Source of the DNA: Bacillota bacterium
Lineage (GTDB): Bacteria > Bacillota > UBA4882 > UBA8346
Assembly (NCBI GenBank): GCA_029776205.1
Contig: JAKOTQ010000065.1
Coordinates: forward strand, 1 to 32,325
Length of the DNA: 32,325 nucleotides
Reading direction: 5' to 3'
A program made the position numbers and the translations under genes. A model generated the notes under the pieces. That model was not told where the DNA came from. It worked only from the letters and a program-made list of their open reading frames with translations, and did no database searches. How positions within the stretch are numbered: the first letter of the stretch is position 1; every line of letters begins with the position of its first letter. Positions 11,059 through 32,325 of this stretch are shown piece after piece.

Positions 11059-12159
11059 TTAGAGAATTGCTTTTTCGGTTTCTTTATCAAAGAGATGCAT
11101 CTTGTTGATATCAAATACCACCCGATGTTGTTCGCCGTCTTTGGCTTTGGAGTGAGAATCCACCCGAGCGATGAAGGAGTGGTTGCCGAGGGACATATAG
11201 AGATAAATCTCGGAACCCATTAATTCGGTTACATCAACGGTGGCAACAACCACATCTTCTTCAGCAACCCGAACGGTTTCAGCTTCCAAAATGGACTCCG
11301 GACGAATACCGAAGATCACCGGTTTGTTGAGATACTGACGGACATTCTTAAACTTGCCTTCCGGAATCCGTACTTTAAAGGCTTCGAAATCTACAACCAA
11401 CTTACCATTGTCATCTTTAACCACGCCGTCCAGGAAGTTCATCGGAGGCGTACCGATAAATCCAGCAACGAACACGTTGTTCGGATGATCATAGATTTCA
11501 AGCGGAGCACCCACTTGTTGAATGATACCGTCTCTCATAACCACAATCCGGTCACCCATGGTCATAGCTTCGACTTGGTCGTGGGTAACATAAATGATGG
11601 TGGTTTGAAGACGATTGTGTAATTTGCTGATCTCAGCACGGGTTTGGACCCGGAGTTTAGCGTCCAAGTTGGAGAGCGGTTCGTCCATCAAGAAGACTTT
11701 CGGTTCGCGAACAATGGCGCGTCCCAAAGCAACCCGCTGTCTCTGACCACCAGAGAGAGCTTTCGGTTTCCGGTCTAACAAGTTTTCAATGCCGAGAATT
11801 TTTGCAGCCTCTTTAACGCGGCGGTCAATCTCGCTTTTCGGGAATTTACGGAGTTTCAACCCGAAAGCCATATTGTTGTAAACATCCATATGAGGATAGA
11901 GAGCGTAGTTTTGGAAAACCATGGCGATATCTCTGTCTTTCGGAGCAACGTTGTTCACGCAGGTTTCTCCGATATAGATATTACCTTCGGAAATTTCCTC
12001 CAAACCGGCAACCATCCGCAACGAAGTGGTTTTTCCGCAACCAGACGGACCGACGAAAACCACAAACTCTTTGTCTTTGATCTCCAAGTTCATGTCATTA
12101 ACAGCAACAACACCGCCGCTAAAGCGTTTATACACGTGTTCAAATACTACTTTAGCCAT
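11059..12159 (-). CDS. Sugar ABC transporter ATP-binding protein (MsmK/UgpC/MalK type)
   Basis: 366 residues. Cytoplasmic ATPase that powers carbohydrate importers. Walker A GPSGCGKTT (37-45), signature LSGGQ (135-139), Walker B VFLMDEP with Asp159-Glu160, D-loop SNLD and switch His193 are all present. After ~240 come the MalK-type C-terminal OB/TOBE domains (FGIRPESI near 280), typical of CUT1-family ATPases. No permease or sugar-binding protein is adjacent, so it fits the shared MsmK type that serves several transporters elsewhere in the genome. ATG 12159 follows AAGGAGGCTTCGTTTA. Codons look more biased than in neighbouring genes, suggesting high expression. A 5-bp inverted repeat, ATCAC-4-GTGAT, lies about 37 bases upstream (12196-12209). 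Confidence 0.93.
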   Translation of the reverse strand: MAKVVFEHVYKRFSGGVVAVNDMNLEIKDKEFVVFVGPSGCGKTTSLRMVAGLEEISEGNIYIGETCVNNVAPKDRDIAMVFQNYALYPHMDVYNNMAFGLKLRKFPKSEIDRRVKEAAKILGIENLLDRKPKALSGGQRQRVALGRAIVREPKVFLMDEPLSNLDAKLRVQTRAEISKLHNRLQTTIIYVTHDQVEAMTMGDRIVVMRDGIIQQVGAPLEIYDHPNNVFVAGFIGTPPMNFLDGVVKDDNGKLVVDFEAFKVRIPEGKFKNVRQYLNKPVIFGIRPESILEAETVRVAEEDVVVATVDVTELMGSEIYLYMSLGNHSFIARVDSHSKAKDGEQHRVVFDINKMHLFDKETEKAIL

Positions 12160-12556
12160 TAAACGAAGCCTCCTTATTTTTTTTAAACTTTATCAATCAC
12201 ATACGTGATCAAAGTCTCCCAAAGTTTAATCTGACAACCCCTCCAAAAAACCACGTTCTCTAATACCACCCCCGCCCGAATATCACCACTTCAAAAAGTC
12301 CATTTTCTATTTTTCGATAATTTTTATTCGACATTTTTCTTCGATTTCCTGCCACGAACCTTGACGCAACCACCATACAATTTTAATGAAAATCCCATTT
12401 CTCCTGATATTCACGGGTTTCGACAACCGTTACAAATGCATTGCTCGTCTATTAATTCTTATGGAATCTCAATGCGGAATATGAATATTTCCTACGTATA
12501 AACCCATGACAAGGCGGGCAATGTAATTTCATAAGGAAAACCGAGGAGGTGATTTT
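12160..12556. other. 397-base divergent intergenic region between the ABC ATPase and coat genes
   Basis: No gene or known RNA seen. It holds the upstream regions of two divergent units. Near the ATPase is ATCAC-ATAC-GTGAT (12196-12209), a possible operator. At 12313-12346 three TTCGAnA-like heptamers are spaced 13-14 bases apart (see separate entry). The right end carries the GAGGAGG site of the first coat-like gene at about 12543-12549. I see no clear SigA promoter. Confidence 0.6.
12313..12346 (-). promoter_or_regulatory. Candidate Spo0A boxes upstream of the ABC ATPase and coat-like genes
   Basis: TTCGACA at 12327-12333 is the exact complement of the 0A box TGTCGAA. TTCGATA (12313-12319) and TTCGATT (12340-12346), with one and two mismatches, flank it at 14- and 13-base spacing. 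Heptamers occur by chance in AT-rich DNA, so this is only a candidate. Confidence 0.3.
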
Positions 12557-12742
12557 ATGGCCAATATAACCCAAATGGAATTAAATACCTTAAAACAGCT
12601 TATCGCCAACGAAGATTTAAATGCCAAAAAATTCAAACTTTATGCCCAGAATTGCAGCGATCCTCAATTGGCCGGTTTTTTTAACGAATGCGCCTTAAAC
12701 GCAGCGACCAACGTTCGCACCCTCATGTCATATTTAATATAA
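12557..12742 (+). CDS. Small CotF-like spore coat protein
   Basis: 61 residues, mostly helical and polar, with NAATNVRTLMSYL at the end. The composition and the helical pattern FFNECALNAATNVRTLM resemble the small CotF-related proteins found in clostridial spores. The start ATG follows GAGGAGGTGATTTT. It is followed 13 bases later by a second protein of the same kind, so the two form an operon ending at a strong terminator. The name is based on resemblance and context; a role in the coat is inferred. Confidence 0.6.
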   Translation: MANITQMELNTLKQLIANEDLNAKKFKLYAQNCSDPQLAGFFNECALNAATNVRTLMSYLI

Positions 12743-12755
12743 AGGAGGCTTATGA

Positions 12756-13046
12756 ATGTATACCGAACGGGAAATGACCCTGGACGCATTGGAAATCGCA
12801 AAGACCAGCGCAGTCATGTTCACTCAGGCTGCCACCGAAACCAGTAACCCGCAGCTTCGCCAAGCTTTGCTGCAAATGCGTTCCCAATGCGAACAAACCC
12901 AGCAACAAATCAGCGAATACGCCCAACAACGGATGTTTTACATGCCGGCACCCCCGGCCCCAATTCAAGACGTCCAAACCGTCGCTCGCTTCCTCAACCA
13001 GTCGGTTGATTCGTCTTCCTTCGCTCCAGAGAACAAATTCTTATAA
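12756..13046 (+). CDS. CotF-like spore coat protein
   Basis: 96 residues. A two-helix, Gln- and Ala-rich protein (DALEIAKTSAVMFTQAATET and QALLQMRSQCEQTQQQIS), then a proline-rich segment YMPAPPAPIQD and a short C-terminal helix. The helical region fits the CotF family (ferritin-like hairpins of spore coat proteins). AAAGGAGG lies 8 bases before the ATG at 12756; an ATG at 12752 is in another frame and leads nowhere. It is the second gene of the pair with the 61-residue protein. Confidence 0.75.
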   Translation: MYTEREMTLDALEIAKTSAVMFTQAATETSNPQLRQALLQMRSQCEQTQQQISEYAQQRMFYMPAPPAPIQDVQTVARFLNQSVDSSSFAPENKFL

Positions 13047-13070
13047 TAAACAGAGCCTATAATCCTATAT

Positions 13071-13099
13071 AACAAAAGAGCTGATCCAGCTCTTTTGTT
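13071..13099. terminator. Bidirectional terminator between coat-like genes and HAD gene
   Basis: A 13-bp perfect stem AACAAAAGAGCTG / CAGCTCTTTTGTT with a 3-base loop. It ends the plus-strand coat pair, and on the minus strand it overlaps the stop codon of the HAD gene. Confidence 0.9.
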
Positions 13100-13892
13100 A
13101 TACTCCTACAACCCGCCGAATTGCCTCGGCAACCCCACAATGGTCGTGATCGGATACCACAAAATCAGCTTCTTTTTTAACGTTCTCCGCAGCATTACCG
13201 ATAGCAACTCCGGTTCCCGCCCATGTAATCATCGACAAATCGTTAGGCGCATCCCCGATAGCCATTACCTCCTCCGGAGAAAATCCCCAGCCGTCAGCCA
13301 ACTCTTGCAAGGCCCGGCCCTTGGAAACTCCCGATGCTAATATCTCCAAATACGTGGGTTTAGATTTTACAAAATAAAGCGTATCACCAAATTGAGATTG
13401 CAATCGCTTCTGTAACGCATCGATCCGCTCAACCTCTCCAACCCCTAACAGTTTATGGGAAGGATGTTTGGCTAGCAAATCAGCCAAATCCGCAACATGG
13501 GGTTTCACCCTTGCATTGGCCGCATACCGCTCTCCCCAAGGAGTTAATTGGTCCATATATAATTGATCGTTGATATATACATTGAGATGAATATCGTTTT
13601 GGCGAAATATCGCCAATACTTCCAACGCTTCCCGAGAAGGAACGGGGCGATGATACAAGATTTCCCCTGACACCGCTTCCTGCACAATAGCCCCGTTATA
13701 AGCGATCAGGGGCACATCCAACCCCAGCTCTTCAGCATAGGGTTTCATCGATTGAACCATCCGTCCCGAAGCAAGTAATACCTTGATACCTTTGGCCACG
13801 GCCCGGGAGATGGCCTCCCGATCCGGTCCGGCTATGGTTAAATCCGTACGCAATAATGTATCATCAAGGTCAATTGCAATACACCGAATCAT
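13098..13892 (-). CDS. Cof-type HAD-superfamily phosphatase
   Basis: 264 residues, cytosolic. Motif I DLDDTLL holds the nucleophile Asp8 and the acid/base Asp10; motif II is LLASGRM; the C-terminal DAPNDLSMI is motif IV with the magnesium ligands, preceded by SKGRALQELADGWG with the motif III lysine. A Cof-type C2 cap occupies about residues 85-190. These enzymes dephosphorylate small metabolites such as sugar phosphates, FMN or PLP; the substrate cannot be told from the sequence. It is transcribed alone, convergent with the coat-like genes. Confidence 0.92.
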   Translation of the reverse strand: MIRCIAIDLDDTLLRTDLTIAGPDREAISRAVAKGIKVLLASGRMVQSMKPYAEELGLDVPLIAYNGAIVQEAVSGEILYHRPVPSREALEVLAIFRQNDIHLNVYINDQLYMDQLTPWGERYAANARVKPHVADLADLLAKHPSHKLLGVGEVERIDALQKRLQSQFGDTLYFVKSKPTYLEILASGVSKGRALQELADGWGFSPEEVMAIGDAPNDLSMITWAGTGVAIGNAAENVKKEADFVVSDHDHCGVAEAIRRVVGV

Positions 13893-14198
13893 CCTATCGC
13901 CCCTTTTTATTTATAGGAATCTTTTTGCATCCATGCCACTATATTAACATGAGAGGATCCTTCAAATCCAGAATATCACATCTCCGGCTTCTCAGAAAAT
14001 TCTCTTTGCACAGAAGCTTCGACTTGACTCTCCAACAAAGCATTTTTTGTCATGTTTGTGTAATTTAATTCGTACTAATTATGTTAAAAATCGTTTAAGT
14101 TCATTTTTTATGTTGATGTCATGTTAGGTTTGTGTTATTATTTTTTCATAAAATTCAAAACTTTACAAGAAGTCCAAATTTAAAAGGAGGTTATTACT
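13893..14198. other. 306-base divergent intergenic region upstream of amt
   Basis: No gene seen. It contains the upstream region of the HAD gene on the left, one TTCGACT heptamer (14022-14028) and, on the right, the AT-rich promoter region of amt with AAAGGAGG at about 14182-14189. I saw no clear TnrA-type or NtrC-type operator. Confidence 0.6.
14113..14141 (+). promoter_or_regulatory. SigA-type promoter of the amt-PII operon
   Basis: TTGATG (14113-14118), 17 bases, TATTAT (14136-14141), leading to a start near 14148, about 50 bases before the amt ATG. Confidence 0.65.
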
Positions 14199-15578
14199 AT
14201 GGAAACAAAAATTATCCTGGATACTATCTGGGTCGTCCTCGCGGCAATGCTCGTTTTCTTCATGAACACAGGATTTGCAATGGTCGAATCCGGTTTTGCC
14301 CGGGCGAAAAACTGTGTCAACATCTTGTCAAAAAACTTCATCGTCTTTGCTGTATCATCATTAGGATTCCTCATTCTAGGCTGGGGACTGATGTGGGGAG
14401 ACGGTAACGGATTCATCGGCCTCAAAGGACTGTTCTTCCTGAACGGAGCCGACAATTCCCCGGCAACCGGAGATGCATATCGGGGTGTTTATTCCGCCAT
14501 CTCCTGGGCAAGCGTACCCCTCATGGCCAAATTCTTCTTCCAGTTAGTCTTCTGTGGTACCGCCGGTACTATTGTATCCGGTGCTGTGGCCGAACGTGTT
14601 AAATATCTGGCATTTATCGTATTTTCATTTATTATGGCAACCATCATTTACCCCATCGTCGGTCACTGGATTTGGGGCGGCGGTTGGTTATCCCAACTGG
14701 GCATGTTTGACTTTGCCGGTTCAACCACCGTTCACTCGGTCGGCGGTTGGGCTGCATTAGCCGGCGCCATGATCTTAGGCCCTCGCTTTGGTAAATATAG
14801 CGATGGCGGAAAAATCAATCCTATCCCCGGCCACAATCTCACCATTGCTACACTCGGTGCCTTTGTTCTCTGGTTGGGTTGGTTCGGATTTAATCCGGGT
14901 TCCACCATGGCCGCTGATCCTCATGCTATTTCCCACATCTTAATGACCACCAATACCGGAGCCATTGCCGGAACTCTCAGTTCTGCTATAGTCTCCTGGC
15001 TTCTTTTGGGTAAACCGGATTTAGGCATGACTATCAACGGTTGTTTAGCCGGCCTGGTTGCCATCACTGCCGGATGCGCCTTTGTCAGCGTTTCCAGCGC
15101 TTTAATAATCGGACTCATCGGAGGCGCCCTGGTTGTCTTCTCCGTTATAGGTTTTGACCGTCTTAAAATCGATGATCCGGTTGGCGCCATCTCCGTCCAC
15201 CTGATCAACGGTATTTTCGGTACCATTGCCGTCGGTCTCTTTGCCCAAGACAACATTACCGGCGTAGCTACCGGTAACGGACTCTTCTTTGGCGGCGGCT
15301 TCACCTTACTTGGCGCTCAAATCGCCGGTATTCTTGCAACAGGAGTCTTCGTATTTAGCATCTCGTCAATCACATGGTTAATCCTCAAATACACCATAGG
15401 CATCCGGGTTAGCCTTCATGAAGAAATTCAAGGCCTGGATATCGGAGAACACGGCAATATGGCCTATCCTGAATTCTTAAGCCGCAAACCCGTATTCTCC
15501 GCATTAGGACAAAACGGAAACGGCGAATCCATCGCTGTCGCTCCCTCTCCAAAACGTGCATTTGAAGGAGGTAAGTAA
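14199..15578 (+). CDS. amt: Ammonium transporter Amt
   Basis: 459 residues, about 11 membrane helices. Ammonium channel of the cytoplasmic membrane, working with PII. FFMNTGFAMVESGFARAKN (about 20-38) is the Amt start. The conserved Asp171 in FDFAGSTTVHS and the twin pore histidines His179 and His334 (VHLINGIFG) are present, as are the FQLVFCGTAGTIVSGAVAER helix and GGGFTLLGAQ. The last ~55 residues are cytoplasmic and would meet the PII T-loop (LHEEIQGLDIGEHG). ATG 14199 follows AAAAGGAGG. The PII gene starts 1 base after the stop, its ribosome binding site lying within the end of amt, so the two are translationally coupled. Confidence 0.97.
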   Translation: METKIILDTIWVVLAAMLVFFMNTGFAMVESGFARAKNCVNILSKNFIVFAVSSLGFLILGWGLMWGDGNGFIGLKGLFFLNGADNSPATGDAYRGVYSAISWASVPLMAKFFFQLVFCGTAGTIVSGAVAERVKYLAFIVFSFIMATIIYPIVGHWIWGGGWLSQLGMFDFAGSTTVHSVGGWAALAGAMILGPRFGKYSDGGKINPIPGHNLTIATLGAFVLWLGWFGFNPGSTMAADPHAISHILMTTNTGAIAGTLSSAIVSWLLLGKPDLGMTINGCLAGLVAITAGCAFVSVSSALIIGLIGGALVVFSVIGFDRLKIDDPVGAISVHLINGIFGTIAVGLFAQDNITGVATGNGLFFGGGFTLLGAQIAGILATGVFVFSISSITWLILKYTIGIRVSLHEEIQGLDIGEHGNMAYPEFLSRKPVFSALGQNGNGESIAVAPSPKRAFEGGK

Positions 15579-16721: not shown

Positions 16722-18788
16722 TTAAAACTGTTCCACATCCGATTCGTGGGATTCTGAACCCTCAGATTTCTTCCGGCTTTCAGAATTCGGCGTTTGCTTA
16801 TCCGGGAAAAACCAGTTCCAAATTTTATAGGAGTTGCTGGCCGGAATATTTTTCCCATTAAATACTTCCTGATAAGTGTCCCGGTTAAAAAATCCCGGAA
16901 CAACCAGTCCAGTTTTGGGATCCACATCCGCCCAAACAATACCCGACGGTTGAGTAAAGTCAAGCACTTGACGCCCAGCCATCGCCGACTTCATATACGT
17001 GCTCCACAACTGAGCCGCGGTGGCACTTCCGATAGTGCGTTCTTTGTACTTCATCGGCGTTCCCTGACGATCGTTTCCGATCCAAACCGCCGTTACAACT
17101 TGTGGCGTATACCCCACAAACCAGGCATTGGTATAATCGCTGGAAGTCCCGGTCTTACCGGCTACAGGATATTGAGAAAGTTTTGCCTTCTGCCCGGTTC
17201 CCTGTTCAACCGCATCCTTCATCAACATGGTCATAATATATGAAGTTTCAGCTGAAAGTACCGCTTTCTTCTCTGCCGTAAACCGTTTCACCGTTTTACC
17301 GTTCCGATCCACCACTTTCCGGACAGCCGTCGGTTCCACATAAACGCCTAAGTTGGGGAAAGGCAAGTAAGCTGCAGCCAGTTCCAGCGGAGTAACACCT
17401 TTCGTTAACCCGCCCAGTGCCAACGGAGCCAAATTGATGTCATTGACCGCGCCTTTCTTCACCAGGCTGGTGATCCCCATCCGTTCCATCTGTTCAGCGA
17501 CAGTCTGGGGACCAATTTCCTGCAACAATTGGACAGCTACCGTATTCACCGAATGACGTAATGCTACCCGTAACGAGATCGGGCCCCGGAAGGTATGATC
17601 ATAATTCTCAGGAGACCACTCAGTCCCGTTGACCAATGAAATCGTCAAAGGTTTATCCTCAAAGATCGACGCTGCAGTATACCCTTTTTCCAGAGCCGTT
17701 GCATAAACAAAGGGCTTCACCGCCGAACCGGGCTGCCGGTATGATTTGACCGCCCGATTATACTGACTGTTGGCATAACTCCTGCCGCCAACCATCGCCA
17801 GAATTTCTCCGGATTTGGCATCCAGAGAGACCAATGCTCCCTGTGGCTGAATCTTCGCCGAAGCAATCGTAGGAAGTTGCGTCGCCATGGTTTGCTCCGC
17901 TGCTTTTTGCGCATTCAAATCCAACGTGGTGTAAATTTTGTATCCGCCAAAGCGCAATTGATCTTCCGTGAACCCTTCTTTAAGCAACTGCTCTTTGACA
18001 TAATCCAGGAAATAACCTCCAACCGTTGCATTATTATTTTGCTTAACAATTTTAATACTGGTAGCCATAGCCGCTTTAGCCTGAGCCTGAGTAATATATT
18101 TATGTTCAGCCATTTTTTTAAGGACTAGATCCCGGCGTTTTTTAGCTGTCGCCATATTTTTTAACGGCGAATAGTTCTCCGGGCTTCGAATCATCCCGGC
18201 AACCAATGCCGCTTCACTCAGATTCAGTTCAGAGGCAGCTTTATTGAACAAATACCGGGAAGCAGCCTCAACCCCGACATTTCCGTGAGCCAGATATACG
18301 CTGTTAAGATATAGCTCCAAAATCTCCTGTTTACTATAGGTTTGTTCAATTTGGAGCGCTAAAGTGATATCCTGCACTTTACGGGAGACTGTTCGTTCCG
18401 ACGACAATAAAGAAATCTTCGCCAACTGCTGGGTAATGGTACTTCCACCCTCCATGGCCCCACCGGGAAGTATGTTATGAACTGCCGCTCTGGCAATCCC
18501 TTTAAAATCAACCCCGTTATGTTTATAAAAACGGGCGTCTTCAATTGCAACAACCGCCTTTTGAAGCATCGGGGAAATTTTGGAGATCGGCGTCCAGACA
18601 CGGCGATAGTAATAAAGATTGCCGATGAGCTTACCGTTTCGATCATAAACCGAAGATGCCGTTCGGATATTCTCCAACTTTTGGCGCATATTTTTGGGCA
18701 ATGTCGCTCCGTAAACGACCGTTGCACCCAACACAAATATTAGGAACACTATCATCAATTTACGTTTCAATTGTTCAATCATCTCCAT
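16722..18788 (-). CDS. Class A penicillin-binding protein (PBP1A type)
   Basis: 688 residues, anchored by one N-terminal helix (about 11-29) with the enzyme domains outside. Glycosyltransferase GT51: AIEDARFYKHNGVDFKGI with catalytic Glu83, then GGSTITQQLAK. Transpeptidase: PGSAVKPF with Ser355 and Lys358, SVN at 413-415, and AGKTGTSS with Lys545-Thr-Gly. The tail is Ser/Glu/Lys rich and disordered. It polymerises and cross-links peptidoglycan. The ATG at 18788 has no good ribosome binding site; the second ATG (18782) has GGAG just upstream, too close. A second protein of the same kind is encoded at 24056-25945. Whether it serves growth or sporulation is not visible. Confidence 0.95.
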   Translation of the reverse strand: MEMIEQLKRKLMIVFLIFVLGATVVYGATLPKNMRQKLENIRTASSVYDRNGKLIGNLYYYRRVWTPISKISPMLQKAVVAIEDARFYKHNGVDFKGIARAAVHNILPGGAMEGGSTITQQLAKISLLSSERTVSRKVQDITLALQIEQTYSKQEILELYLNSVYLAHGNVGVEAASRYLFNKAASELNLSEAALVAGMIRSPENYSPLKNMATAKKRRDLVLKKMAEHKYITQAQAKAAMATSIKIVKQNNNATVGGYFLDYVKEQLLKEGFTEDQLRFGGYKIYTTLDLNAQKAAEQTMATQLPTIASAKIQPQGALVSLDAKSGEILAMVGGRSYANSQYNRAVKSYRQPGSAVKPFVYATALEKGYTAASIFEDKPLTISLVNGTEWSPENYDHTFRGPISLRVALRHSVNTVAVQLLQEIGPQTVAEQMERMGITSLVKKGAVNDINLAPLALGGLTKGVTPLELAAAYLPFPNLGVYVEPTAVRKVVDRNGKTVKRFTAEKKAVLSAETSYIMTMLMKDAVEQGTGQKAKLSQYPVAGKTGTSSDYTNAWFVGYTPQVVTAVWIGNDRQGTPMKYKERTIGSATAAQLWSTYMKSAMAGRQVLDFTQPSGIVWADVDPKTGLVVPGFFNRDTYQEVFNGKNIPASNSYKIWNWFFPDKQTPNSESRKKSEGSESHESDVEQF

Positions 18789-26953: not shown

Positions 26954-27043
26954 CTAGAAAATACCACCGAACAGGAAGAGCAATATCAAGAGAATGATCC
27001 ACGATAAATTCCCGTCGCCGCGGGGTCCACTCCTTTTACCCAT
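26954..27043 (-). CDS. 29-residue membrane peptide, probably sporulation-related
   Basis: Sequence: a basic start (MGKRSGPRGDGN), then one hydrophobic helix (LSWIILLILLFLFGGIF) to the end. It has a very good ribosome binding site (GAAAGGAGAG, 7-10 bases before the ATG) and its own terminator. On the minus strand upstream there is a CATACTTTA that matches the SigK -10 pattern CATAnnnTA. In layout it resembles the small single-helix sporulation peptides (YjcZ type) of Bacillus, but homology cannot be shown by eye. Function unknown. Confidence 0.65.
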   Translation of the reverse strand: MGKRSGPRGDGNLSWIILLILLFLFGGIF

Positions 27044-27095
27044 AAACTTTCTCTCCTTTCACTCCCAAATGTCCTGATGACTTACTGTCTTGGTA

Positions 27096-27104
27096 TAAAG
27101 TATG
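27096..27104 (-). promoter_or_regulatory. Candidate SigK -10 element for the small membrane peptide
   Basis: CATACTTTA on the minus strand fits CATAnnnTA. An AC lies 18 bases upstream, slightly farther than usual. The start would fall around 27088, 45 bases before the ATG. Confidence 0.4.
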
Positions 27105-27163
27105 AATCCCGTAAAGCAAAGGGTCTATATCTTTTGGAACAAATCATGGGGCCGCTAGCACAA

Positions 27164-27541
27164 TTATAAAGCCAACATCTTCCGAACGATCACCCATCCG
27201 GCTGCAGCCAACAGCAACCCTCCAATATTATTAAGAAACAGATTCACCAATGCCCGGGCGAACATCCCGTCATGCATATAACGGACACTCTCCCAAGCAT
27301 AGGCTGAAAACGTGGTAAATCCCCCCAGAAAACCGGTTATCGCAAAAAATCGAACCGACTCCGGTATTGACCCTCTTTCAATCAGAGCTGTTAATGCTCC
27401 AATAAACAAACACCCGAGCAGGTTGACCCCCAAAGTTCCCCAAGCCATACCCTCGCCACATAGCCTGGAAACGAAAGCCGATAAACCAAACCGGCAGATG
27501 GAACCCAAACCGCCACCAATGATAATTGCCAACCATTGCAT
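27164..27541 (-). CDS. crcB: Fluoride ion channel CrcB/Fluc
   Basis: 125 residues, four membrane helices. Exports fluoride. The signature GGGLGSICRFGLS lies at the start (about 8-20), and GCLFIGALTAL, then FFAITGFLGGFTTFSAYAWE holds the conserved Gly-Phe-x-Gly-Gly-(Phe/Leu)-Thr-Thr-Phe-Ser motif. ATG 27541 follows GAGGTTATTTTA. It is 26 bases after the NlpC/P60 gene on the same strand, so probably in its operon. Many bacteria have tandem crcB genes; only one is present here, and no fluoride riboswitch was found upstream. Confidence 0.95.
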   Translation of the reverse strand: MQWLAIIIGGGLGSICRFGLSAFVSRLCGEGMAWGTLGVNLLGCLFIGALTALIERGSIPESVRFFAITGFLGGFTTFSAYAWESVRYMHDGMFARALVNLFLNNIGGLLLAAAGWVIVRKMLAL

Positions 27542-27567
27542 TAAAATAACCTCTTTATTTGATTGAT

Positions 27568-28005
27568 TCACTCTTTTTTTCTTTCGACACCCGCCTCCAC
27601 AAACCTTCTGGCTCCGACCAATCGCCGCCGCCATTTAAAATTTAACGTACTGATATGAACTGTAGTCCCTTCCAGTACATGTATAAAAGAGTTATCATCC
27701 ACCATAACCCCGGTATGAGTAACTACCGGCCCCATTTTAAAATAAACAAGATCCAACGGCTGCAAAGAATCTAGGGGAACTTCAACACCATAACTGCGAA
27801 TGCCTTTCAAATACCGGTCCGGTTCCGTTTTAAACCAGTCTTTCGCATAATCCCGGCCATCATTATCCGGAATATTAATCCCGCAGTCTTTGTAAATCAG
27901 ATAAACTAACCCCAGACAGTCCAAACCATGTATATCTCTTCCCCCATGACGGTAAGGGATCCCCAAATATTTATCAAAAATGACCGCTAATTCTTTCTCT
28001 TTCAT
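27568..28005 (-). CDS. NlpC/P60-family cysteine peptidase
   Basis: 145 residues, single catalytic domain. HGGRDIHGLDCLGLVYLIYKD contains the nucleophile Cys30; VVTHTGVMVDDNSFIHV has the His97; a third polar residue (His/Asn, around 109) lies in the last strand. There is no signal peptide or wall-binding domain, unlike secreted autolysins; it resembles stand-alone or phage-tail-type NlpC enzymes that cut gamma-D-Glu-meso-DAP links. ATG 28005 follows GAGGTTGGCG; a TTG at 28011 is in frame. It leads the operon with crcB. Confidence 0.88.
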   Translation of the reverse strand: MKEKELAVIFDKYLGIPYRHGGRDIHGLDCLGLVYLIYKDCGINIPDNDGRDYAKDWFKTEPDRYLKGIRSYGVEVPLDSLQPLDLVYFKMGPVVTHTGVMVDDNSFIHVLEGTTVHISTLNFKWRRRLVGARRFVEAGVERKKE

Positions 28006-28074
28006 CGCCAACCTCTTTTCAACTGGATCTTAAACATAATACATGATATGCCGCCTTCCCTATGATAGTCATAG

Positions 28075-28105
28075 AAAAAACCGTCTGCACAATCGCAAAC
28101 GGTTT
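28075..28105 (-). terminator. Terminator after the HD-GYP gene
   Basis: Minus-strand AAACCGT / ACGGTTT stem with a 14-base loop, followed by TTTTTTC. Confidence 0.75.
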
Positions 28106-28124
28106 ACTATATCAAGTTATTCGA

Positions 28125-29031
28125 TTAACCGACTTTATCCTGTTCAGGAAACCATACGATTTCCCGGGGTAAATCATAATAATACTCGCTATGCTTTGCC
28201 CTTTCTTGAATCGTAAGGATTTGATCTTTGCCCACTGCAAGTAAGGCATTGACACATTCCGGACAAAACTGTTTACCAGATTGTGCCAAAATCTCCTCCA
28301 GCGCTTTCTCGATCGAGGACCCTTCCCGATAGGGTCGGTCACTAGTGATGGCATCCAAAGCATCAGCCACAGCAAAAATTCTTGCCAATAAAGGGATATC
28401 CAGTCCCCGCCTTCCGTAAGGATAGCCGTTTCCATCATACCGTTCATGATGTAAAAGAATAATATCCGCAGCCCCTTCCAGGAATTCGATTCCGCTGACA
28501 ATAACATATCCCAATCCGGGGTGGAGCTGAATGATCTCCAGTTCTTCATCAGTCAAAGCTGAAGTTTTCAATAAAATCGCATCTGGAATCCCAATCTTAC
28601 CGATATCATGGAGAAAACCACCCCAGGCCAGTTGATTCAGCTGTGCTTCACTTAACCCCATCTTCTCCCCAATGGCCAGCGCATACCCGACAACCCGGCC
28701 CGAATGACCCCATGTGGCATGATCCCGAAGCTCTAAAGCTCTGGTAAGGGCCTGAAGCGTTCCTTCATAAGTTTGCTTCATTTGTTGATGCATCTCTTGC
28801 AAATGCGCCCACCGTTCTACTTCTGCGCGGAAGGAAAGGATAGTTTGACGCAAAAAAAAGAACTGACAACATCATTATCAGAAAGAATGCCAATACATAT
28901 AAAACCAGGTCTGACCCACTTCTGCCCGGCCAATGTAAATAAACACCAACACCCCACACAATCATCAGGGTCATCGTAAGACAAAATAGAACAATCGGCC
29001 CCCGGGGAAACATAGATTTCACCATTTTCAC
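28125..29031 (-). pseudogene. Membrane HD-GYP domain phosphodiesterase, interrupted by a frameshift at a T8 run
   Basis: Two frames together make one normal protein of about 301 residues. The first (from GTG 29031) encodes two membrane helices (about 12-34 and 42-60) and runs through SVLFF into the T8 run (minus strand, 28859-28852). The second frame, entered by skipping one base, continues with LRQTILSFRAEVERWAHLQEMH (a coiled linker) and an HD-GYP domain: HSGRVVGYA, FLHDIGKIGIP, HHERYDGNGYPYGRRG, VADALDAITSDRPYR. The metal-binding HD and the GYP motif (as GYPYG) are intact, so the intact protein should cleave cyclic di-GMP. With seven T's the frames would join. It could be a pseudogene, a slippage-dependent gene, or a sequencing error. 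Two Spo0A-box-like sites lie upstream. Confidence 0.8.
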
Positions 29032-29130
29032 TTCTCTATTATGTATTTTATCGTTGATACTATCTCAGCCGTGTCTTTTAGGATCAGCCTGAAGATAGAA
29101 ATATTATCTCTAATGATATAAAATATATCG

Positions 29131-29199
29131 TTCGACTCAAAAATTTTTTAATTATTTTCAAACAAATAGTTTATTATGTTTTGTTATTTTAATTCGACA
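29131..29199 (-). promoter_or_regulatory. Candidate Spo0A boxes upstream of the HD-GYP gene
   Basis: TTCGACA (29193-29199) complements the 0A box TGTCGAA exactly; TTCGACT (29131-29137) has one mismatch. They are 162 and 100 bases before the HD-GYP start, in very AT-rich DNA, so chance is possible. Confidence 0.3.
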
Positions 29200-29238
29200 T
29201 TTTCATGAAAAAACCTTCTAGCCTTAAGAATTGAGCAA

Positions 29239-29275
29239 AAAATCCATATCAGCTACTTTTGCTGATATGGATTTT
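29239..29275 (-). terminator. Terminator overlapping the 3' end of the XRE regulator gene
   Basis: Minus-strand 15-bp perfect stem, AAAATCCATATCAGC / GCTGATATGGATTTT, with a 7-base loop and a T run. The last codons (NPYQQ) lie in the first arm and the stop codon lies at the loop. Confidence 0.92.
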
Positions 29276-29579
29276 CACCTAATTTATCCACCAATTTATG
29301 AACAGCCTCAATTTCCCTTTCCGATAATTGTGCAGCTTTTCTGGCAACGGTAGCAATTTCTGCTGAAACCAACGGACACGTCCAGTCTTCACGGATCAAC
29401 TGATCCACACAAACCTGAAAGAAATCAGCCAACCGGACCACTACTTCAAGAGATGGCTCATTCACCCCATTTTCATATTTTTGGATCTTCTCCCGAGTGG
29501 ACCCGATGACCTCTGCCAAACCCGCCTGAGTCAGTCCTTTTTCCAACCTGAACTGTTTAATTTTCTCTCCGAATTTCAT
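29253..29579 (-). CDS. XRE-family helix-turn-helix regulator
   Basis: 108 residues. The N-terminal HTH_3 domain (about 1-58) shows GLTQAGLAEVIGSTREKIQKYENG, given in part here as LTQAGLAEVIGSTREKIQKY, and a conserved NEPSLEVVVRLADFF. The C-terminal half holds a helical region (SEREIEAVHKLVDKLGEN) that may give dimerisation. It is a DNA-binding repressor or activator of unknown target. It lies divergent from the secreted CAP-domain gene, which may be a target. The ATG at 29579 is preferred since GAGG is 9 bases upstream; the ATG at 29585 is too close. Confidence 0.88.
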   Translation of the reverse strand: MKFGEKIKQFRLEKGLTQAGLAEVIGSTREKIQKYENGVNEPSLEVVVRLADFFQVCVDQLIREDWTCPLVSAEIATVARKAAQLSEREIEAVHKLVDKLGENPYQQK

Positions 29580-29805
29580 TACCATACACCTCGGTTGGAA
29601 GAATTACTCTTTTTTTAATAATCGACATTCCATCCGACGATCTTTAGGCGTTTCAAAGTTTTTGATTCATCCCCCACTGTATTGGTTGTACTTTCCTAAA
29701 GGTTTTGAACTGCTACCAACGAAATCTTGTACATCCAAAAAGTTGAGGGAATGGAAAACTGGGGGATAATTGGAAGAAAACTTAAAAACCGAAAGGAGAG
29801 ACCCT

Positions 29806-30471
29806 ATGAAACGCTCAAATAAGATTTTTGCATCTTTGACAGTAACATTAGGTTTACTCGTTTCCTGTATGATTCCGGCTTTCGCGGCTACCGTATATTC
29901 CACCAAATACTCAACGAAAACCATTTATTCCGGTTATACTGGTCGGACGATCTACTACTACACCCCGTCGAAAACAACGGTAACTACTCCAACCCAGTCT
30001 ACTACACCAAGTACGAAACCCTCAACTCCAACCACAACGACTCCATCAACCTCCAGCCCGACAACGCCAACTCCTTCAACTACTGGATTGGCTGCTGAAG
30101 AATCTAAAATGATCAGTTTGGTCAATCAGGCTCGAATGGGTCAAGGGCTTTCCCCATTAAGCGTAAATTCTCAATTAACCACCTTAGCCCGGCAAAAAAG
30201 CCAAGACATGGTCAAAAATAACTACTTTAGCCATACATCTCCAACTTACGGATCACCGTTCCAAATGATGAAGAATGCCGGAATCACTTACAGTACCGCC
30301 GGGGAAAACATCGCTGGAGCTCAAACCACCGAAGCCGCTCATCAAAACCTGATGAACAGTGAAGGCCACCGGGCCAATATTCTCAATCCTAAATTTACCG
30401 AAATCGGTATCGGTATTGCTTCCGGCAGCGTCTACGGGAATATCTTTACCCAAATGTTTATCGGACGCTAA
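29806..30471 (+). CDS. Secreted CAP/SCP-domain protein (YkwD-like)
   Basis: 221 residues. A signal peptide MKRSNKIFASLTVTLGLLVS ending at AFA-A (about residue 28), a Tyr/Ser/Thr-rich segment (ATVYSTKYSTKTIYSGYTGR), a Thr/Pro/Ser linker (about 60-95; T-T-P-S-T repeats), then the CAP domain (about 100-221): MISLVNQARMGQGLSPL, NYFSHTSP, GENIAGAQTTEAAHQNLMNS, GHRANILNPKFTEIGIG. The two CAP-site histidines (in FSH and GHR) and the glutamates of the cavity are present. Function in Firmicutes is unsettled; SafA/YkwD relatives occur in spores. ATG 29806 follows GAAAGGAGAG. Divergent from the XRE gene. Confidence 0.93.
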   Translation: MKRSNKIFASLTVTLGLLVSCMIPAFAATVYSTKYSTKTIYSGYTGRTIYYYTPSKTTVTTPTQSTTPSTKPSTPTTTTPSTSSPTTPTPSTTGLAAEESKMISLVNQARMGQGLSPLSVNSQLTTLARQKSQDMVKNNYFSHTSPTYGSPFQMMKNAGITYSTAGENIAGAQTTEAAHQNLMNSEGHRANILNPKFTEIGIGIASGSVYGNIFTQMFIGR

Positions 30472-30506
30472 AAGCTTTCACAAATTAGAACCTGGATGTA
30501 AAATGG

Positions 30507-30537
30507 ACAAGGGGGAATTATCCCCCTTGTTTTTTAT
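30507..30537 (+). terminator. Terminator of the CAP-domain gene
   Basis: Stem ACAAGGGGGA / TCCCCCTTGT, loop ATTA, followed by TTTTTATTT. The yabQ stop codon on the other strand (30518-30520) lies in the loop region. Confidence 0.9.
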
Positions 30538-30934
30538 TTCGCCGCCATCGAAACCGGCGGGTCATACGCTTTCCGGAACGGGCCATACAACTGAAACCCC
30601 ATTTAAACTGACGCGGCCACCAGAAAAACATCCGCCAAAATTTGATCCAGACCGCAATCAACGCCCGGCTAAAGAAAACATAATATCCGATAAGCCCGGC
30701 GCCTATCGCCAACCACACATAAAGCCGGAGTTCCAACCAGGTACTCCAATACATAAGCGGAATCATCACTACGGTCGCCAACACCCAGAATAGCAGATCT
30801 CCACTATAGGTCATCCACCCTTTTGCTTTAATCATACCCCGAAATACTCGGTATAAATCGAAAAATCCTCCTAACACGATTCCGGTTAAGAGGAGAAGCA
30901 GACAGGAACTTAGTTGGGAATGTACATATTCCAT
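30518..30934 (-). CDS. yabQ: Spore cortex biosynthesis protein YabQ
   Basis: 138 residues, with three or four membrane helices in the first ~90 and a strongly basic tail (RSGKRMTRRFRWRRNKKQGG). LSSCLLLLLTGIVLGGFFDLYRVFR near the start and SGDLLFWVLATVVMIPLMYW fit the YabQ family, a mother-cell membrane protein needed for spore cortex formation. ATG 30934 follows AGGAGGGGGATCG. In most spore formers yabQ follows yabP directly; here a lytic transglycosylase gene is in between. It is the last gene of the group. Confidence 0.9.
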   Translation of the reverse strand: MEYVHSQLSSCLLLLLTGIVLGGFFDLYRVFRGMIKAKGWMTYSGDLLFWVLATVVMIPLMYWSTWLELRLYVWLAIGAGLIGYYVFFSRALIAVWIKFWRMFFWWPRQFKWGFSCMARSGKRMTRRFRWRRNKKQGG

Positions 30935-31024
30935 CGATCCCCCTCCTGTTATATCAACCATATGCGCCAACAGGAGGATTTAACACCACGTCTTCTTTCG
31001 ATCTTTTTCAACAGTCATCAACGA

Positions 31025-31867
31025 TTACTTAGAAAGGATCTTCCGATTGACCCAACCGAAGAAGACTAACCACATAATGAAAGTGATCCCCAACAGCCAT
31101 TTAATTCCCCGATGCATATAGAGGGATGTTTGCAACTGAACCGCAATAGCCTTCTGACGTAATTCCTGCCAATAGGTTAGCGTCTTCTGAATATAACTCC
31201 GCGTCTCTTTAAATTTAGGCTCCGAATCAGACTGAACGTTGGAAAGCCCTGCATTATAAGCCTCCAATGCCAAATCAATCCGTCCGTCATAACGATCCAG
31301 CAGCTTCCGAAAATATTTGACGCCCACCTCAATATTGGGTGCTATCTCATAAATACAATCCTCGGAACACACTTTCAGATTGCTATGAGTGCCGGTACAC
31401 TGGGATTTGCTATATTCCTGCCATACTGACGGCATAATCTGCATCAATCCCCGTGCTCCGGCCTTAGATACCGCCCGGGGATTAAAATTGCTCTCGGCTT
31501 TGATAATGGCAAAGACCAACATCGGATCGAGTTTTTCTTTTAATGCATAGCGGTTAATCTCCCGAATAATCGGCTGCACATCTCCGGTAAGTTGGTGAGA
31601 CTGCATATGAGCACTACTTAAAACGGTCATCGCCCGTTCAGCCGGACCGCCAGCCACCCAAAAACTCAAACCAGCCAAAGCAAGCATCACCGTGATCAAT
31701 AGCAATAACGAAAAAACCCATGAAGGATCCAAATTTCGCTTTTGGCGAAATGTATCCCAAAGAATCACGGCAGGGCTGAGAATAAATCTCATGATATGTG
31801 AAAAATAACGCTGTACAATACCGGTATGACGTTTACGTCTTCTGGTTCGATTTTTGGAAGATGGCAT
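31025..31867 (-). CDS. Membrane-anchored lytic transglycosylase (SLT domain)
   Basis: 280 residues. A basic N-terminus (SSKNRTRRRKRHTG), one membrane helix (about 51-73), a ~170-residue outside domain, and a second helix near the C-terminus (about 254-274). The SLT domain starts at about 100: VFAIIKAESNFNPRAVSKAGARGLMQIMP, given here in parts, with catalytic Glu125, then EAYNAGLSNV. The segment CTGTHSNLKVCSEDC has three cysteines. It cuts peptidoglycan glycan strands. ATG 31867 lies 6 bases from GGAG. It lies between yabP and yabQ, so it is probably co-expressed in the mother cell; a second membrane helix at the C-terminus is unusual for this family. Confidence 0.9.
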   Translation of the reverse strand: MPSSKNRTRRRKRHTGIVQRYFSHIMRFILSPAVILWDTFRQKRNLDPSWVFSLLLLITVMLALAGLSFWVAGGPAERAMTVLSSAHMQSHQLTGDVQPIIREINRYALKEKLDPMLVFAIIKAESNFNPRAVSKAGARGLMQIMPSVWQEYSKSQCTGTHSNLKVCSEDCIYEIAPNIEVGVKYFRKLLDRYDGRIDLALEAYNAGLSNVQSDSEPKFKETRSYIQKTLTYWQELRQKAIAVQLQTSLYMHRGIKWLLGITFIMWLVFFGWVNRKILSK

Positions 31868-31970
31868 GGATATCTCCAATCAGCTAATCATGCTGATAAA
31901 ATTCGCGGATCGACCGAAAATTCCTGCCATTCTTCCTACCGATCCAAAAATCCAAAATTCCCCTGCATCG

Positions 31971-32261
31971 TTACTTAGCTAATTTACTGAAAAATCCTTT
32001 ACCTTTTTTGCCCAGATTATCATCAGCGTAAACCAACGAATTAACCGTTCCTTCGATCATCACCTTTCCCTGCTCTAAATTCAACTGCTGAATGTGAAGT
32101 TGTTCCCCCTTGATCTCCAAAATTCCGGAACTGGTCTCCAAAATCACCCGCTCTTGATCATAACTATCCAAATTGGTTACACCTTCGATGCCCAGTAACC
32201 GGCGTCCATTCATATTCACATTATGCATTAATTCATGATTGGATTTGCTTTGTGCTTCCAC
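31971..32261 (-). CDS. yabP: Sporulation protein YabP
   Basis: 96 residues. HNVNMNGRRLLGIEGVTNLDSYDQERVILETSSGILEIKGEQL and LNLEQGKVMIEGTVNSLVYAD (quoted in part: LLGIEGVTNLDSYD, GQVMIEG-type) match the YabP/YqfC family, a beta-rich protein that works with YabQ in cortex assembly. The start is GTG at 32261, 7-8 bases after AAAGGAGGAG; upstream in-frame codons extend to 32315 but lack a ribosome site. A basic, Gly/Lys-rich tail (GKKGKGFFSKLAK) follows. The region 32262-32325 holds the end of a preceding unit that I could not identify (usually an RqcP/YabO-type S4 protein precedes yabP). Confidence 0.9.
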   Translation of the reverse strand: MEAQSKSNHELMHNVNMNGRRLLGIEGVTNLDSYDQERVILETSSGILEIKGEQLHIQQLNLEQGKVMIEGTVNSLVYADDNLGKKGKGFFSKLAK

Positions 32262-32325
32262 GCCGACTCCTCCTTTTAATTCATCATATTCCCGGAGCCG
32301 ACGGGATAGAAGCATTCTTCAGCGT

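Follow-up and report, generated by a model that had tools for sequence, protein, structure and literature searches.

Is the HD-GYP gene at this locus split by a mechanism that the cell uses, or by a chance change of one base? The window, a 32,325-nucleotide stretch of a Bacillota genome (contig JAKOTQ010000065.1), carries two overlapping minus-strand frames that together resemble a single protein. In the upstream frame, reading begins at GTG 29031 (though ATG 29025 is the more probable start) and ends with a stop at 28765. One base out of register with it (+1), the downstream frame spans 28853 to 28125. A run of eight Ts (T8; 28859-28852, minus strand) lies where the upstream frame passes to the downstream one. 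The initial annotation left four options for this break: a sequencing or assembly error, a recent mutation, phase variation, or transcriptional slippage.

A predicted HD-GYP enzyme in two frames

The upstream frame (28765-29031) encodes two hydrophobic segments and the N-terminal half of an HD-GYP protein; its codons past the T run are an out-of-frame reading of the linker. The downstream frame (28125-28853) holds the linker and a complete HD-GYP domain, with the catalytic motifs HDIGK, HHERYDGNGYP, and VADALDA all intact, as had been noted from the sequence. Pfam places the HD_5 (HD-GYP) domain at 28266-28748 (residues 36 to 196 of the downstream frame), and the product scores 128 bits against HD_5 and 74 bits against HD. 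The match lies above the curated cutoff and includes the HD and HHExxDGxGYP motifs that define the family. Residues 21 to 217 align with the solved HD-GYP enzyme 4mcw. The gene is thus predicted to be an ordinary two-helix, membrane-anchored HD-GYP gene of the c-di-GMP phosphodiesterase type. The downstream domain retains 61 of 65 positions that are invariant among relatives, which is within the relatives' own range. No relaxation of selection on this domain could be distinguished from what the relatives show. Intact motifs do not separate a sequence error from a recent mutation.

We sought relatives in 60 related genomes and among GTDB representatives. In 15 full-length relatives of the same class (50 to 59% identity), both parts lie in one frame, with stop-to-stop frames of ~295 to 313 codons comprising two hydrophobic segments followed by the HD-GYP domain. 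The relatives bear out the initial annotation in that the frame break is present in the sequence and the two halves belong to one HD-GYP protein, which in the relatives is encoded by an unbroken frame. Every possible junction was then scored against a profile built from these 15 relatives. The best junction, at 28860-28848, scores 359 bits, compared with 344 bits for the downstream part alone and 346 to 355 bits for shuffled N termini joined to the downstream part. Homology in the N-terminal part thus appears modest, as membrane segments would give, and its support comes mainly from position and hydrophobic pattern. The nearest local match at the junction, VLFLRQS in one relative (L015), corresponds to VLF plus LRQT in the window. 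Taken with the relatives, the reading of the two frames as one joined gene is right.

Shortly before the T run, the downstream frame is blocked by three stops (TGA TAA TGA); the length change is therefore confined to the interval from roughly 28872 to the stop of the upstream frame at 28765. Junctions from ~28872 to 28839 score within about 2 to 3 bits of the best, which makes the T run (28852-28859) the likely but not proven site of a one-base change. Skipping one T restores the frame, as initially proposed; it is not the sole restoring reading, since an opposite slip by two also works and scores ~1 bit lower. The second T8 that had been pointed out, at 1869-1862 in an scfB-like gene (601-1905), is indeed in frame.

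At the site of the break, the T runs of relatives are 2 to 8 long, and one relative has T8 in frame. None of the relatives compared is broken at this position. Together, these two observations leave conserved programmed frameshifting unsupported: conservation would be the chief mark of programmed use, and the break is not conserved at the same site. What we find is a singleton, with a single protein of the relatives matching the two halves and one genome showing the break. Elsewhere in the gene, the HD-GYP frame of one relative (L037, genome G019) ends early, at 238 codons, after ...GYPHAL; this may be another independent frame break.

Gene loss and other split genes

The HD-GYP gene and an HTH regulator gene form a block at 28106-29679. 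The regulator gene, the upstream neighbor, is of the HTH_3 (Xre) type and lies at 29253-29585 (minus strand). In the single congener compared (G001, ~80% DNA identity), the flanks corresponding to 26955-28105 and 29680-32325 are just 44 bases apart, showing that the HD-GYP gene and the adjoining regulator are missing there. A genome of another genus in the family (G002) keeps an intact HD-GYP gene, flanked as in the window by the CAP-domain and NlpC/P60 genes; the HTH regulator was not found at the corresponding locus of that genome. The simplest history is that an old family gene stood here; of the two species compared within the genus, one has lost it outright and the other, in its sequenced form, carries it with a broken frame. 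The HD-GYP gene, intact in G002 and gone with its block from G001, is dispensable in this genus. The genome under study holds eight further HD-type matches, so the loss of one HD-GYP gene is unlikely to be severe.

We also looked for other split genes in 911 kb of this genome (about one third) and 492 kb of the congener. Gene ends gave noise when the two genomes were aligned as nucleotides, so the rate of breaks was taken from a protein-level comparison, which covered the 208 congener frames that found a match at 65% identity or more. Three of these 208 genes are clearly split inside the gene here, at A7, G5, and G6. At A7, rlmN is split in two frames (L142, ~16878-17947, minus strand; contig C35, ~196890-197902), as confirmed by NCBIfam (profile positions 42/44), and no other full-length rlmN was found in the whole genome. 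At G5, the split gene encodes a hybrid histidine kinase of ~1200 codons (L148, ~11799-15241, plus strand), and at G6, a small membrane protein whose sequence suggests an ECF-type transporter component (L141, ~11147-11705, minus strand). The congener copies of all three are open. At least one comparable break occurs in the congener itself: a membrane protein gene judged from its sequence to be ECF T-component-like (L187, around 3455, minus strand) is broken there at T9, while its counterpart in the genome of the window is open.

Homopolymers of at least 5 cover only ~1.5% of coding bases, as estimated from run counts, so three of three splits at such runs is far from chance. Splits of this kind are expected from sequencing or assembly errors and also, at a lower rate, from natural slippage mutations. 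A mutator state through loss of MutS or MutL was rejected, both being intact. Codon- and hexamer-based scans for breaks around homopolymers mostly reported normal gene boundaries, and 16 scan candidates proved on reexamination to be apparently ordinary neighboring genes; the scans did catch one real break, the G6 split in L141.

What could have caused the break

We infer the cause from four observations: the frame break itself, the one-frame relatives, the congener's lack of the gene, and the other homopolymer breaks. With good confidence, we attribute the split to a non-programmed single-base indel at a homopolymer in the HD-GYP gene. Among the options listed initially, the congener's gene loss and the other short-homopolymer breaks favor two, an error of sequencing or assembly and a recent mutation; phase variation and programmed slippage gained no positive support, as no relative is broken at the site. 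An assembly or consensus error has close to an even chance of being the cause, and it stands slightly ahead because the core gene rlmN is split likewise. A real recent indel is a serious possibility at somewhat less than even, close behind because the congener has lost the gene. In that case, replication slippage would have struck T8 in a gene dispensable to this lineage. The main product would then be a useless short membrane peptide, and some full-length protein might leak through slippage of RNA polymerase.

How much such slippage might contribute depends on run length. In the sampled 911 kb, coding A/T runs of at least 9 are absent, against ~30 expected by codon reshuffling; coding A8 is depleted (17 observed versus 42 expected), and coding T8 mildly so (18 versus 25). 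T8 is near the upper end of this genome's run lengths, where slippage is likeliest. That longer runs are nearly absent because of a technical collapse was rejected as an explanation, since other genomes have the same cutoff beyond length 8. Baranov and colleagues give nine as the usual length for selection against slippage (PMC1088944). In an E. coli RNA polymerase reporter, slippage begins at T7, and deletion at T8 gives ~10% rescue (PMC6260861), from which a real T8 would probably leak some full-length protein here.

That such leakage is selected, with T8 fixed and RNA polymerase leaving one U out of some transcripts to yield a short membrane peptide and a little full-length HD-GYP protein, is nevertheless very unlikely. 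The rescue in the reporter, the intact catalytic domain, and the missing runs of nine and longer, as though slippage had consequences here, speak for it, but T8 itself is only mildly depleted, no relative is broken at the site, and slippage known to be functional occurs at longer A runs (A11 in tssM, PMC4256274; A9 in dnaX, PMC1088944). We give still less credence to phase variation, in which slipped-strand pairing during replication would alter the length of the T run and switch the gene on and off. A homopolymer does sit within the coding sequence at the break, and a C. difficile c-di-GMP phosphodiesterase is known to phase-vary, though by DNA inversion (PMC9286219). Yet a run this short is common here (~0.65 A/T runs of 8 per 10 kb), the genome's other breaks fall in rlmN and similar genes rather than in surface genes, and the congener has deleted the HD-GYP gene. 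Least credible is that two genes are present, one for a small membrane protein and the other for a soluble HD-GYP enzyme that starts inside the linker and is coupled to the upstream stop. In-frame ATGs at 28793 and 28781 do lie shortly ahead of the stop at 28765, but neither they nor TTG 28853 has a convincing ribosome-binding site, and the membrane part is fused in one frame in all relatives.

Implications and comparison with known systems

With a non-programmed homopolymer indel as the preferred reading, the locus mainly carries a caution: genes split at short homopolymers in draft genomes need comparison with relatives and with the rest of the assembly before a mechanism is proposed. The split at A7 of this genome's only rlmN illustrates the point. 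If T8 is real and leaky, the gene would offer a simple test of slippage at T8 outside E. coli. Slippage that had been kept by selection would amount to a built-in dial-down of a signaling enzyme, with a low set level of the full-length membrane phosphodiesterase.

Like membrane-anchored HD-GYP phosphodiesterases (Pfam HD_5; 4mcw), the product has a complete domain and motifs behind two hydrophobic segments; it differs in that the frame is broken between the membrane part and the domain, and its activity is a prediction from sequence. The break also resembles that in tssM of Citrobacter rodentium (A11; PMC4256274), a homopolymer break at which slippage would restore the frame. Here, however, the run is shorter, consists of T rather than A, and is unconserved. 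The GeneTack survey assigns singletons flanked on either side by conserved sequence to sequencing errors or indels (PMC3711429). All the findings at this locus agree with that class, and the HD-GYP gene resembles these singleton frameshift genes in that its halves match one protein, its relatives are intact, and a single genome shows the break.
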